Positions 1 to 4,290 of a DNA stretch of 64,000 bases are shown in pieces. Made by a program: the position numbers and the translations under genes. Origin of the DNA: Ignavibacteriota bacterium. GTDB lineage: Bacteria; Bacteroidota; Ignavibacteria; Ignavibacteriales; Melioribacteraceae. Position 1 is the first letter of the stretch. Each line of letters starts with the position of its first letter. Location of the stretch: positions 1 to 64,000 of the forward strand of contig PAAX01000027.1 of NCBI GenBank assembly GCA_002698995.1, given 5' to 3'. The notes below the pieces were generated by a model. That model was not told the DNA's origin. It searched no databases and saw only the letters and a program-made list of their open reading frames with translations.

Positions 1-118
1 ATAGAATTCAGGATTTTTTATGAAACTAAAACTTGACGGCAAATCATTAACATTAGAACAGATTGATTCTTTTCTTAAGAGCAATCTTAAAATAGATTTA
101 AAAGATTTTGTCCTCTAA
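1..118 (+). pseudogene. Truncated duplicate of the 5' end of hutH
   Basis: Bases 1-91 are identical to 2335-2425, the ribosome-binding region and first codons of the intact hutH downstream. The copy starts at ATG 20 and keeps 24 codons of hutH reading. It then diverges, runs a few foreign codons and stops with TAA at 116-118, giving a 32-residue peptide. Homology may extend left of the window, so the true left end is unknown. It is a non-functional fragment, probably the left boundary of an inserted or rearranged segment (92-2334). Identity is seen directly; the mechanism is inferred. Confidence 0.85.
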
Positions 119-340: not shown

Positions 341-1957
341 ATGTTAAGTGATAATGAAATATTTGATTTGTTGAATATAAAAGAAAATTCCAATCTCGAA
401 TTCAAAAAAGCAGAAGATTCCTTTTCTTTTGACAAATTATGTGGATATTCTGTTGCTATAGCTAATGAACATGGTGGCTATTTGATTTTAGGCATTACTG
501 ACAAAATTCCACGTAAAATTATTGGGACAAAAGCTTTTCCTGATATTTCAAAAACCGAAAGAGCTCTTTATGATCGATTACATCTTCGTATAGATATTAC
601 AGAGTATTTTTTAGAAGATAAAAGAATAGTGGTAGCTAATATTCCATCCCGTCCAATCGGTAAACCATTAGAATTAAACGGCAAATATTTAATGAGAGTA
701 GGTGAGTCACTTCTGCCTATGTCCTCCGAACAAATAGAAAAAATTCATAAAGAAAAAATATTAGATTACTCTGCAGAAATATGTGAATCAGCAACGATGG
801 ATGATCTCTCTGAGGAAGCAATTGAGGCATTTAGAAATCTGTGGTTCAAAAAGTCACAAAATAAGAAATTATTATCATTGCCGGTTCAACAATTACTTAA
901 GGATGCTGAGCTTATTTATGATGATAAGGTTACTTATGCAGCACTAATACTTCTTGGTAAAAAATATTCGATTGGTAGATTTATTTCAAATAATGAAATT
1001 ATATTTGAGTACCGTAACAAAGAAGAACAAATTACACATAGTCAGCGAATAGATTTTCGGGATGCTTTCTTTAATATTTATGATAAAGTTTGGGATACTA
1101 TCAATCTACGTAATGAAGTTGAGCATATTCAAGAAGGATTGTTCATTAGAGACATTCCCAATTTCAATGAAGAGGTTGTAAGGGAGTCTATTCTAAATGC
1201 AATTTGCCATCGTGATTATACTTTGACAGGCTCTACTTTTATTAAACAATTTCCCCATAGATTAATTATTGAAAGCCCTGGTGGATTTTTACCCGGCATT
1301 AACCCTGGAAACATTATCTATCAGCATTCACCACGCAATAGAAGAATTGCAGAAGCTTTTCAAAAATGTGGTTTAGTGGAAAGGTCTGGTCAAGGAGCTG
1401 ATAAAATATTTGAAAAATCTATTTCCGAAGGAAAGGCTAAACCGAATTATTCAGGTTCAGATTCATATAAAGTGAAACTTGTACTTAATGGTCAAGTCAA
1501 AGATAAACAATTTATTAGGTTTCTTGAGAAAATCTCTGAAGATAAAAACAAATTCTTGAGCATTGATGAACTTCTGATTTTAGATGATATTAGAGAAGGA
1601 ATTCCAATTTCTGATAGTTCTAAAGACCTTCTTGAAAACCTTAAATCTATAGGAGTTATTGAAGTTCACGGTAGAGGTAAGGGTTCAAAATATATTCTTT
1701 CTCAAAAATATTATGAGTATATAAATAAAAAAGGCATCTATACAAGAAAGCGTGGTCTTGACAATATTGAAAAAAGGGAATTAATACTTAAGCACCTACG
1801 CCAGAATAAAAAGGCCTCAAGAGATGAAGTAAACCAGATTTTCCCTAATCTAACACGTGATCAAGTCTATAATCTTTTGCGCAGGTTGAAAAAAGAAAAC
1901 TTAATAGAATTTATTTCAGAAAGGGGAAATTTTGGATATTGGATTCTCAAAGATTAA
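341..1957 (+). CDS. AlbA_2/Schlafen-domain ATP-binding regulator
   Basis: A 538-residue predicted cytoplasmic DNA-binding ATPase-like protein. The N-terminus (about residues 13-130, with NLEFKKA and NEHGGYLILGI) is an AlbA_2/Schlafen putative DNA-binding domain. A middle region around 280-360 (ESILNAICHRDY, then GGFLPGINPGNI and a SGQGADKI stretch) matches the GHKL-type HATPase_c_4 domain found in this family. The last 60 residues look like a winged helix. GAGG lies just ahead of ATG 341. It stands alone in the small island between the two copies of the hutH start and is followed by an array of 11-bp repeats that it might bind. Proteins of this architecture are common in accessory regions, but their function is largely undetermined. 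Family call confident; role unknown. Confidence 0.85.
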   Translation: MLSDNEIFDLLNIKENSNLEFKKAEDSFSFDKLCGYSVAIANEHGGYLILGITDKIPRKIIGTKAFPDISKTERALYDRLHLRIDITEYFLEDKRIVVANIPSRPIGKPLELNGKYLMRVGESLLPMSSEQIEKIHKEKILDYSAEICESATMDDLSEEAIEAFRNLWFKKSQNKKLLSLPVQQLLKDAELIYDDKVTYAALILLGKKYSIGRFISNNEIIFEYRNKEEQITHSQRIDFRDAFFNIYDKVWDTINLRNEVEHIQEGLFIRDIPNFNEEVVRESILNAICHRDYTLTGSTFIKQFPHRLIIESPGGFLPGINPGNIIYQHSPRNRRIAEAFQKCGLVERSGQGADKIFEKSISEGKAKPNYSGSDSYKVKLVLNGQVKDKQFIRFLEKISEDKNKFLSIDELLILDDIREGIPISDSSKDLLENLKSIGVIEVHGRGKGSKYILSQKYYEYINKKGIYTRKRGLDNIEKRELILKHLRQNKKASRDEVNQIFPNLTRDQVYNLLRRLKKENLIEFISERGNFGYWILKD

Positions 1958-2353
1958 CATACAATTGCGTCAACTTTATATCTAAATCAACTATTAACGC
2001 AAGTTTGACGCAACTTGTTACCCAGACATCTTGATAATTCTTTATATTACAACAACTTAACTCAAGTGTGCTTATAAAATTATTGACGCAAGTTTGACAC
2101 AGTATTATGATACAGTACTTTTTTAACTAATTGCAAATATATTATTTACAAGAATAAGCACTGTGTTTTTATTATTACTTTTGACGCAAGTTTTACCTAA
2201 TTGGTATTTTTATGCCAAAATGGTTTTAAAATTAGACAAACCTTTCTCACCAAACTTTAAGTACCCAAGTATTTAAAGATTTGTTGATTAATGAGGTTTA
2301 AAGAGAGATTTGTGTAAATTTCAGTAATGCAAAAATAGAATTCAGGATTTTTT
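1958..2353. other. Intergenic region between island ATPase and hutH
   Basis: About 396 bases without a gene. It contains the 11-bp repeat array, and from 2335 the right-hand copy of the 91-bp duplicated segment with the AGGA ribosome-binding site of hutH. No convincing TAnnTTTG promoter for hutH was found; the last TTGACG (2181) could act as a -35-like element but this is weak. Confidence 0.5.
1965..2196. repeat. Array of 11-bp TTGACGCAAGT repeats (possible operator)
   Basis: Four sites carry the unit TTGACGCAAGT or a close variant. One at 1965-1976 is on the minus strand. A tandem pair lies at about 1994-2015, with two units in register 11 bp apart inside an imperfect palindrome (TAAC...GTTA). 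Another pair lies at 2083-2104, the second unit degenerate, and a last one at 2181-2196. Spacing of one helical turn suggests a protein-binding array rather than chance. It lies between the ATPase gene and hutH, so it could be an operator for either or an element end. Binding is inference. Confidence 0.7.
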
Positions 2354-3910
2354 ATGAAACTAAAACTTGACGGCAAATCATTAACATTAGAACAGATTGA
2401 TTCTTTTCTTAAGAGCAATCTTAAAGTAGAACTTACCAAAGAAGCAAAATCAAAAGTAAAAAAAGCAAGAGATTTAGTTGAGAAATGGATTAAAGATGAT
2501 AAGGTGATCTACGGTGTTACTACCGGATTCGGTGAGTTTGCAAATGTGAAAATATCTAAAAGTGATATTGAACAGCTTCAGGAAAACTTAATTGTAAGTC
2601 ACTCAACCGGAGTTGGCGATAATCTTCCCCCGTTTATAGTTAAGATTATGATGCTTCTTAGAGTGAATGCTCTTGCAAGAGGCAACAGCGGAATAAGATT
2701 GGAAACGCTTGAGCTTCTAATCGAAATGATAAACAATAATATCATCCCGGTAATTCCTTCGCAAGGTTCAGTTGGCTCCAGCGGCGATCTCGCTCCTCTT
2801 TCGCATTTGGTATTGGCTTTAATAGGAAAAGGGAAAGTACAGGTTATCAATGATGTTCATTCTCCAAAAGCTTATTTATCAAAAGAATTATCCTCAAAAA
2901 ATGTATTAAAGAAATTTGGGTTGACTCCTATTAGATTAAAAGCGAAGGAAGGATTGGCTTTAATTAACGGCACCCAAATGATGACTGCATTTGCTTCTTA
3001 CATTTGTATAAAGGCGAAAAGTTTAATTAAGCAGGTTGATATTTCTGCCGCATTAAGTCATGAAGCTTTAAGAGCAACAGATAAAGCATACGATGTAAGA
3101 CTTCATGAACTGAGACCATATAAAGGACAAATTGAAACCGCAGAGAATATGCTGGTATTATTAAACCAGAGCGAGATAAGAAATTCACATTTGGAAAATG
3201 ATCCAAGAGTACAAGATTCATATTCATTAAGGTGCATTCCTCAGATTCATGGCGCCTCAAGAGATACAATAGATTATGTCTGTTCAAAAGTTGAGATTGA
3301 AATAAACTCTGTTAATGATAATCCTTTAATATTCCCAAATGAAGGAGATCATTTAGAAGGAGGTAATTTCCACGGACAACCAATTGCGCTGGTTATGGAT
3401 TTTATGGGAATAGCTTTATCGGAATTAGCAAATGTATCTGAGAGAAGAATTGAAAGATTAGTAAACGGATCGTTAAGCAGTCTGCCAAGATTTTTAACAG
3501 AGCACGGCGGTTTAAATTCTGGATTAATGATTGCACAATACACAGCGGCAGCATTGGTTTCCGAAAATAAAGTATTGGCTCATCCGGCAAGTGTAGATTC
3601 AATTCCAACATCAGCAAATCAAGAAGATCATAATTCTATGGGTTCAATAGCGGCGAGAAAATGTTTTAATATTCTTAAGAATGTTCAGAAAGTAATTGCA
3701 ATTGAAATGCTTACCGCTTCACAGGGAATTGAATTTCTTAAACCGTTAAAATGCGGATTGGGTACAAATGCTGCATATAAAGAAATTCGGAAATATATAA
3801 AACCATTAAAGAAAGATAGACTGCTGCATGATGATATAGCAAAAGCCATTGAGCTTTTAGAAAAAGATATTGTTCTTAATGCAGTTGAAAAGGAAGTAAA
3901 GTTATATTAG
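2354..3910 (+). CDS. hutH: Histidine ammonia-lyase (SSG variant of the MIO triad)
   Basis: 518 residues, the usual length. It deaminates L-histidine to urocanate, the first step of histidine degradation, in the cytoplasm. Visible family marks are the active-site Tyr53 in YGVTTGFG, His83, the MIO-forming loop GSVGSSGDLAPLSH at about 138-151, and QEDHNSMG near 423. The residue before the catalytic Ser143-Gly144 is serine (Ser142) rather than the usual alanine. AGGA precedes the ATG. No hutU, hutI or hutG gene lies nearby, so it is isolated from its pathway here, and a related aromatic amino acid lyase specificity cannot be excluded. Its first codons are duplicated at 1-91. Confidence 0.93.
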   Translation: MKLKLDGKSLTLEQIDSFLKSNLKVELTKEAKSKVKKARDLVEKWIKDDKVIYGVTTGFGEFANVKISKSDIEQLQENLIVSHSTGVGDNLPPFIVKIMMLLRVNALARGNSGIRLETLELLIEMINNNIIPVIPSQGSVGSSGDLAPLSHLVLALIGKGKVQVINDVHSPKAYLSKELSSKNVLKKFGLTPIRLKAKEGLALINGTQMMTAFASYICIKAKSLIKQVDISAALSHEALRATDKAYDVRLHELRPYKGQIETAENMLVLLNQSEIRNSHLENDPRVQDSYSLRCIPQIHGASRDTIDYVCSKVEIEINSVNDNPLIFPNEGDHLEGGNFHGQPIALVMDFMGIALSELANVSERRIERLVNGSLSSLPRFLTEHGGLNSGLMIAQYTAAALVSENKVLAHPASVDSIPTSANQEDHNSMGSIAARKCFNILKNVQKVIAIEMLTASQGIEFLKPLKCGLGTNAAYKEIRKYIKPLKKDRLLHDDIAKAIELLEKDIVLNAVEKEVKLY

Positions 3911-3951: not shown

Positions 3952-4290
3952 TTAGTTTTAAATCTCATACTCCCGTAATCTCAAAGATTGCGGGAATTTT
4001 GGCGGTAATATTTTAAGTGCTGTTTATAAAGTTTTGAGAGAACTAAAAACTAATATTGACTCATCCCCCTAACCCCCTTCTCTATTCTAAAGAAGGGGGA
4101 ATAAAAATCTAATTTCCAATAAACAAAAAATTAAATTTACTAGTCAATCCAACATTAATACTCCCCTTCTCTTTTTAAAAGAAGGGGCTGGGGGAAGAGT
4201 TTAAAAAGCTTCTTTTAGCTGCACTTTCTTTCAAAACAAAAACTCCCGTAATCTCTAAATTCCCGCAATCTTAAAGATTGCGGGAATTTA
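3921..4290. repeat. Cluster of REP-like palindromes, two families
   Basis: Family A is a palindrome built on ATTCCCGCAATCT/AGATTGCGGGAAT, seen at 3921-3951, 3969-3998 and 4258-4290, with an extra half-copy at 4243-4256. Family B is a CCCCCTTCT...AGAAGGGGG hairpin with a CCCCCTAA or CTGGGGG flank, at 4059-4101 and again in inverted orientation at 4160-4201. The whole stretch between hutH and the macroglobulin gene is therefore intergenic palindromes and holds no gene. Such units resemble non-coding REP/BIME or small MITE-like elements. Confidence 0.75.

Follow-up and report, generated by a model that had tools for sequence, protein, structure and literature searches.

Near the beginning of the 64,000-nucleotide window analysed here (contig PAAX01000027.1 of an Ignavibacteriota bacterium), a cluster of short repeats lies between a gene encoding a winged-helix ATPase and hutH, which raises the question of what these repeats do and which protein, if any, reads them. 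The first-pass annotation of this DNA had described at least four sites, including one on the opposite strand and two tandem pairs in exact 11-bp register. We identified five sites with at most one mismatch to TTGACGCAAGT within the 239 bp (1958–2196) that follow the stop codon of the ATPase gene, as well as one site with two mismatches; the units and the weaker matches among them are as follows.

1963–1973, minus strand: unit 1, TTGACGCAATT, 10/11 matches
1994–2004, plus strand: unit 2, TTAACGCAAGT, 10/11 matches
2005–2015, plus strand: unit 3, TTGACGCAACT, 10/11 matches, in exact 11-bp register with unit 2
2057–2067, plus strand: weak unit, TTAACTCAAGT, 9/11 matches (two mismatches)
2083–2093, plus strand: unit 4, TTGACGCAAGT, 11/11 matches
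2094–2104, plus strand: degenerate half-match, TTGACACAGTA, 7/11 matches, in 11-bp register with unit 4
2181–2191, plus strand: unit 5, TTGACGCAAGT, 11/11 matches

Dinucleotide shuffles of 1958–2196 yielded a mean of 0.006 sites with at most one mismatch (maximum 1), and no such site occurred elsewhere in the 64-kb window, as had been noted before. The opposite-strand site was recovered as unit 1. Of the two tandem pairs, the one at 1994/2005 is exact and is the only good tandem pair of the array, while the other had to be relaxed, as both 2094–2104 (after unit 4) and 2192–2202 (adjoining unit 5) match TTGACGCAAGT at only 7 of 11 positions. In the genome as a whole, the 9-mer core TTGACGCAA occurs 25 times, compared to 31 occurrences of a reversed control pattern; four of the 25 copies are located in the window array, and the remaining copies are far apart except for one pair separated by 591 bp. 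The core is therefore not enriched genome-wide and its copies are scattered, indicating neither a second array nor a regulon. Two of the units also resemble promoter elements: TTGACG of unit 4 doubles as the −35-like half of a TTGACG-N17-TATGAT match, and TTGACG at 2181 (unit 5) can likewise serve as a −35-like box, the unit being followed by a promoter-like TTGACG-N18-TATTTT. Promoter-like matches in this AT-rich stretch were not above chance, however (3 in the window versus 2.8 in shuffles).

The gene that ends immediately before the array, and whose product had been named as the candidate binder, has the following features.

341–1957, plus strand: intact gene encoding a 538-aa protein with AlbA_2 (Schlafen), HATPase_c_4, and C-terminal winged-helix domains (Pfam, AlphaFold, Foldseek)
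1751–1954, plus strand: coding region of the last winged helix (residues ~471–538), the proposed reader of the array (model, Foldseek, unit/domain covariation)

In Pfam, the N-terminal AlbA_2/Schlafen domain (PF04326; E = 2.6e-13, 51 bits, cut-off 25.3) and the HATPase_c_4 domain (PF13749; E = 3.9e-13, 49.6 bits, cut-off 26) were both identified, and no Pfam match was found in the C-terminal winged-helix part. An AlphaFold model based on six sequences was poor for the whole chain (mean pLDDT 55.5, pTM 0.27); the only usable part, residues 475–538 (pLDDT about 66–88), presents a winged-helix fold. With AlbA_2, HATPase_c_4, and a C-terminal winged helix, the protein has the domains that characterise the Schlafen RNase-HATPase-wHTH family. 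Three acidic residues (E15, E20, and D54), which we take from what is known of SLFN13 to be putative catalytic residues, and K22 are invariant among six homologues. Among sequence relatives, a solved structure was found for DIP2311 of Corynebacterium diphtheriae alone (PDB 3lmm; E = 8.9e-19, residues 18–369), which is listed as an uncharacterised protein and is also the top Foldseek match for the whole chain; further Foldseek matches include small winged-helix regulators (SqrR, CadC, and Fur). No second ATPase of this kind was found in the genome at E 1e-5, and PADLOC returned only weak Argonaute-type matches for this protein, which are uninformative.

The downstream side of the array raises two alternatives that do not involve this protein as regulator; the features that bear on them are as follows.

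1–96, plus strand: truncated duplicate of the hutH 5′ end at the contig start (91 identical bases, 1 mismatch, 4 matches)
2335–2430, plus strand: second copy of the 96-bp duplication, forming the start of the intact hutH (comparison with 1–96)
2354–3910, plus strand: hutH, encoding histidine ammonia-lyase, the next gene and not a usual partner of this ATPase family (TIGR01225, 674.9 bits, cut-off 539.15)

The array is located 163–391 bp upstream of the hutH start and contains promoter-like matches, as might be expected of a hutH operator bound by an unrelated histidine-utilisation regulator. However, arrays of the same kind follow homologous ATPase genes that have no hutH beside them, and the genome shows no regulon of the unit; we regard this explanation as scarcely credible. 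The duplication of the 96-bp hutH 5′ end at the contig start places the ATPase gene and the array between two copies, and hutH relatives had no such ATPase within 1.5 kb. The window module thus looks like a solitary, lineage-specific insertion of an intact gene with its array at hutH; no long open frame was found in 97–340 by three-frame translation, the non-coding flank does not align in relatives, and the contig begins at the duplication. Both the duplicated hutH ends and the lack of the ATPase beside hutH relatives would fit a recombination site or the end of a mobile element, as would a homologous locus (L084) with repeats on both sides of the gene, but no integrase or transposase adjoins the module in the window, most homologues are found in restriction-type operons or have the array on the 3′ side only, and the unit follows the DNA-reading domain, which together make this origin of the repeats highly improbable.

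If the repeats belong to the ATPase gene, they should recur beside its homologues. Six relatives were obtained from a scan of sequenced genomes, and 61 of the 395 genomes of the phylum had matches; one scan of a viral collection provided two relatives and added little. To assess repeats, similar 10-mers in direct or inverted orientation were counted pairwise over the 300 bp at the stop codon, and each region was compared with 200 dinucleotide-shuffled versions of itself. The set comprised 47 homologues with <70% mutual identity (the window protein and its nearest relative L063, at 72%, were both kept). Significant repeats (p ≤ 0.01) were found at the stop codon of 34 of these 47 non-redundant homologues (72%), whose loci had been viewed by eye before the test, as compared to 6% of 126 stop regions of neighbouring genes and 2% of the ATPase genes' own upstream regions (45 in total); the remaining homologues, about 28%, lacked a significant array. 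Ten plasmid and phage loci of more distant members, added later and previously unseen, included three at p ≤ 0.01 and five at p ≤ 0.05, and none of the distant members located outside restriction loci (L115–L118) reached p ≤ 0.01; the array is therefore common but not universal in this family. Nearest-neighbour spacing in the arrays shows a peak at 10–12 bp (mode 11) and a smaller second peak at 20–22 bp, whereas the controls are flat. The median distance from the stop codon to the start of the first unit is 4.5 bp, and in 13 loci this unit begins before that codon has ended. Units with at most one mismatch are approximately 150-fold denser in arrays than elsewhere in the loci, a figure that reflects seeds chosen in the arrays.

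An unrelated repeat would be expected to be absent beside homologous ATPase genes and dispersed in many copies elsewhere. The exact unit is indeed local, with no more than variants of it in the closest relatives, and the exact 11-mer was therefore rejected as a family-wide or genome-wide site; however, most homologous genes are followed by arrays of their own with 10–12-bp spacing, and no other array was found in the genome. The nearest relative, L063, has a unit (TTTTGACGTAAGTT) close to that of the window, and units differ by locus, as illustrated by L108 (GGAAGCGATTC), L070 (TTAGTCGTGAA), L096 (TATAGAAACTT), L035 (TTAAGAGAAGAG), and L083 (GATTACGATTG). As judged from sequence comparison, the window repeats are very probably DNA sites bound by the defence-type protein of the gene before them, and the recurrence of different but equally spaced repeats in the family points to a family-wide link between a DNA-reading domain and its target.

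Which part of the protein the units follow was assessed by comparing unit similarity with the identity of the AlbA_2/ATPase part and with that of the last winged helix. The best unit motif of each locus was taken from a background-corrected motif finder, as an earlier finder had chosen low-complexity words in AT-rich loci (L063). Over all 1770 pairs, the partial correlation between unit and winged helix given the N-terminal part was 0.05 and not significant (p = 0.11), plausibly because unit differences between distant relatives have reached saturation. For pairs whose N-terminal identity is 50% or more, a threshold set after this apparent saturation had been seen and applied to pairs that are not fully independent, the corresponding partial rho was 0.50 (permutation p = 0.0005). 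When controlled for the winged helix, the N-terminal part showed no correlation with the unit (−0.15, N-terminal identity 0.5–0.9). Among related pairs, unit similarity thus tracks the last winged helix and not the AlbA_2/ATPase part; because of the post hoc threshold and the non-independent pairs, we treat this covariation as strong but not final. Together with the arrays found after most homologous genes, it supports the adjacent winged-helix ATPase as the binder.

Individual loci present the same pattern. L084 and L086 share 78% identity in the N-terminal part and 22% in the winged helix, and their units differ; L086 and L071 share 73% identity in the winged helix, and their units are similar. 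At the DNA level, L086 is 93–99% identical to L084 over the gene start and the AlbA_2 region, and is unrelated to it in the winged-helix region, where it resembles L071. The 3′ repeats of L086 are of the L071 type (ATGCTC/GAGCAT; L086-type unit GTAATGCTCG), while those of L084 are AATTGGCCCAT. L086 is a natural chimera, with a 3′ array that goes with its winged helix; an L084-like AlbA_2 half joined to an L071-type winged helix and array suggests that reader domain and array were apparently exchanged together. The converse is observed for L037 compared to L089 and L092, with N-terminal identities of 40–41%, winged-helix identities of 55–58%, and units that are alike. Similar units with similar C-termini are also found across phyla: TTTAACGCAAA-like units are present in L111 (Cyanobacteriota), L112 (Pseudomonadota), and L027, and TTGCAGAAAGA-like units in L125 (Pseudomonadota) and L072–L090 members.

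In L084, AATTGGCCCAT repeats flank the ATPase gene on both sides in near-identical blocks (around 2590 and 790, read on the reverse strand), and L086, despite having 3′ repeats of another type, shares the 5′ repeat block and the 5′ flank with L084. Unit copies at the gene's own promoter were considered as a general rule and rejected, with three hits in 7500 bp, two of which are in L084.

Some arrays are wholly direct, including those of L114 and L108, with 20 and 12 counted units, respectively. Such arrays would suit an alternative in which the AlbA_2/Schlafen part binds the transcript of the array, with the repeats acting as RNA in the same way as those of type III toxin–antitoxin systems. 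Both strands carry units in the window array and in 18 of 34 loci, however, and recognition is therefore probably of duplex DNA; the spacing matches the helical turn of DNA, and unit identity tracks the winged helix, not the AlbA_2 part. RNA-level repeats are, accordingly, a very unlikely explanation. In L114 (5340–5580), a Streptococcus plasmid, the 20 counted copies of the 10-bp GTAGGATACA are arranged head-to-tail in the interval that separates the ATPase gene from a helicase gene.

We return to the reading in which the repeats are binding sites on DNA. From the sequence data, the array is probably an operator array for the protein encoded just upstream, read by the winged helix of that protein, and an operator is favoured among the functions listed earlier by the first-pass annotation (operator, replication site, segregation site, or element end). 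In the mechanism that we propose, the C-terminal winged helix would read about 10–11 bp of duplex DNA per unit, with one molecule per helical turn; this spacing would place successive molecules on the same face of the DNA, so that they could bind cooperatively, perhaps in a way that depends on whether the HATPase domain carries ATP. We infer that the window protein binds its array in this manner and may control transcription, of its own gene or of hutH. An operator located downstream of the gene of its own regulator is unusual, which counts against this reading. Plasmid replication iterons are also short direct repeats about one helical turn apart beside the gene of a winged-helix protein; in contrast, the protein adjacent to the window array is not a replication initiator (AlbA_2 and HATPase_c_4 are its only Pfam domains), and many of its homologues are encoded in restriction operons.

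Genomic context suggests what such binding may control. Many homologues belong to restriction-modification operons of type I or type III or to BREX operons, in which the array precedes the restriction gene. The order HsdM-HsdS-ATPase-array-HsdR is found on annotated plasmids of Picosynechococcus and Acidovorax, ATPase-array-HsdM-HsdS-HsdR on an annotated Aeromonas plasmid, and a type III-like arrangement on an annotated Phaeobacter plasmid; L063 is a BREX locus with the order PglX-ATPase-array-PglZ. Domains of helicases and restriction subunits (ResIII, SWI2_SNF2, and HSDR_N) and DNA methylases are the commonest among 40 downstream genes, and type I specificity subunits are the most frequent match among upstream genes. 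Many ATPase genes overlap the upstream gene or start within a few bases of it, which leaves the array in the space ahead of the following gene; in the usual restriction-modification arrangement, the upstream neighbour is the modification or specificity gene and the following one is the restriction gene. In this setting, the bound protein may control transcription of the restriction gene, of its own gene, or of both, and in restriction operons binding could set the timing of restriction-gene expression or curb it. Arrays are also present where no co-oriented gene follows closely (L015 and L084), and must therefore do more than control the next gene; a protein-centred role, either autoregulation or tethering of the Schlafen RNase at the locus, may be among their functions.

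Tethering is central to another alternative, for which PrrC, a guard nuclease in restriction operons, provides a model. Here, the winged helix would bind the array and keep the Schlafen-type RNase inactive at the restriction locus, to be released when phage attack disturbs the DNA or a partner enzyme. The invariance of E15, E20, D54, and K22 and the retention of the array by solitary genes (L084 and the window copy) are consistent with such a sentinel, but the DNA-held inactive state is conjectural and the catalytic role of the acidic residues is presumed from SLFN13; overall, we consider it unlikely. Further evidence in its favour comes from a 2026 NAR survey, which predicts that Schlafen RNase-minimal histidine kinase-wHTH proteins are backup RNase effectors in BREX and BREX-related systems (PMC12839542). 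These proteins have the same domain order as the window protein, and the available part of the survey mentions no DNA repeats beside their genes (PMC12839542). They are described as closely linked to BREX or BREX-related core genes (PMC12839542), whereas the window copy is not linked to BREX or BREX-related core genes, being located beside hutH at the contig end, and the wider family is often found in restriction-modification loci; L063, between PglX and PglZ, is linked to BREX.

Returning to the operator reading, the proposed regulator would differ from those described for restriction systems. RptR, a repressor of type I restriction systems, likewise binds DNA at direct repeats and is associated with the loci of these systems (PMC12255303). 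However, RptR is a 9-kDa, single-domain protein with a TAGCTA site shared across species, and its repeats are part of the promoter that precedes its gene (PMC12255303), whereas the protein described here is a 538-aa ATPase, the 10–12-bp units of its family vary with the protein, and the array is downstream of the gene; TAGCTA is absent from 1958–2353. Controller (C) proteins of type II restriction systems, as discussed in PMC12255303, resemble this family in that the regulator gene adjoins the restriction gene, but they are small proteins with a lambda-repressor-like HTH, as opposed to the Schlafen/GHKL/winged-helix architecture found here.

No description of arrays beside these genes was found in the literature searched, which excluded most subscription papers and preprints; within that literature, the protein architecture was already known, and the arrays and the link between reader and target are apparently the undescribed part. 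To our knowledge, only a few transcriptional regulators are known for type I restriction systems. Schlafen/ATPase/winged-helix proteins occur often in restriction and BREX loci, and the arrays provide each of them with a testable DNA target, a sequence tag for the family, and many natural reader/target pairs from which to learn how one winged-helix fold reads different sequences. Because the array immediately follows the segment that encodes the winged helix, on its 3′ side, recombination could exchange reader and target together. It is possible, if rather doubtful, that these proteins form a class of defence proteins with their own DNA address beside the gene, in which reader and array form a single cassette for inheritance and exchange, and an array-bound Schlafen-type RNase acts as both sentinel and regulator of the restriction or BREX locus.

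Two scaffolds of a phage collection from human faeces, deposited as bacteriophage (L109 and L129), encode homologues approximately 41% identical to the window protein, each with downstream repeats of its own. In the window itself, two similar C/T-rich and G-rich stretches (CCCCTTCT...AAGAAGGGG) are present after hutH (4060–4200) and resemble an intergenic repeat.
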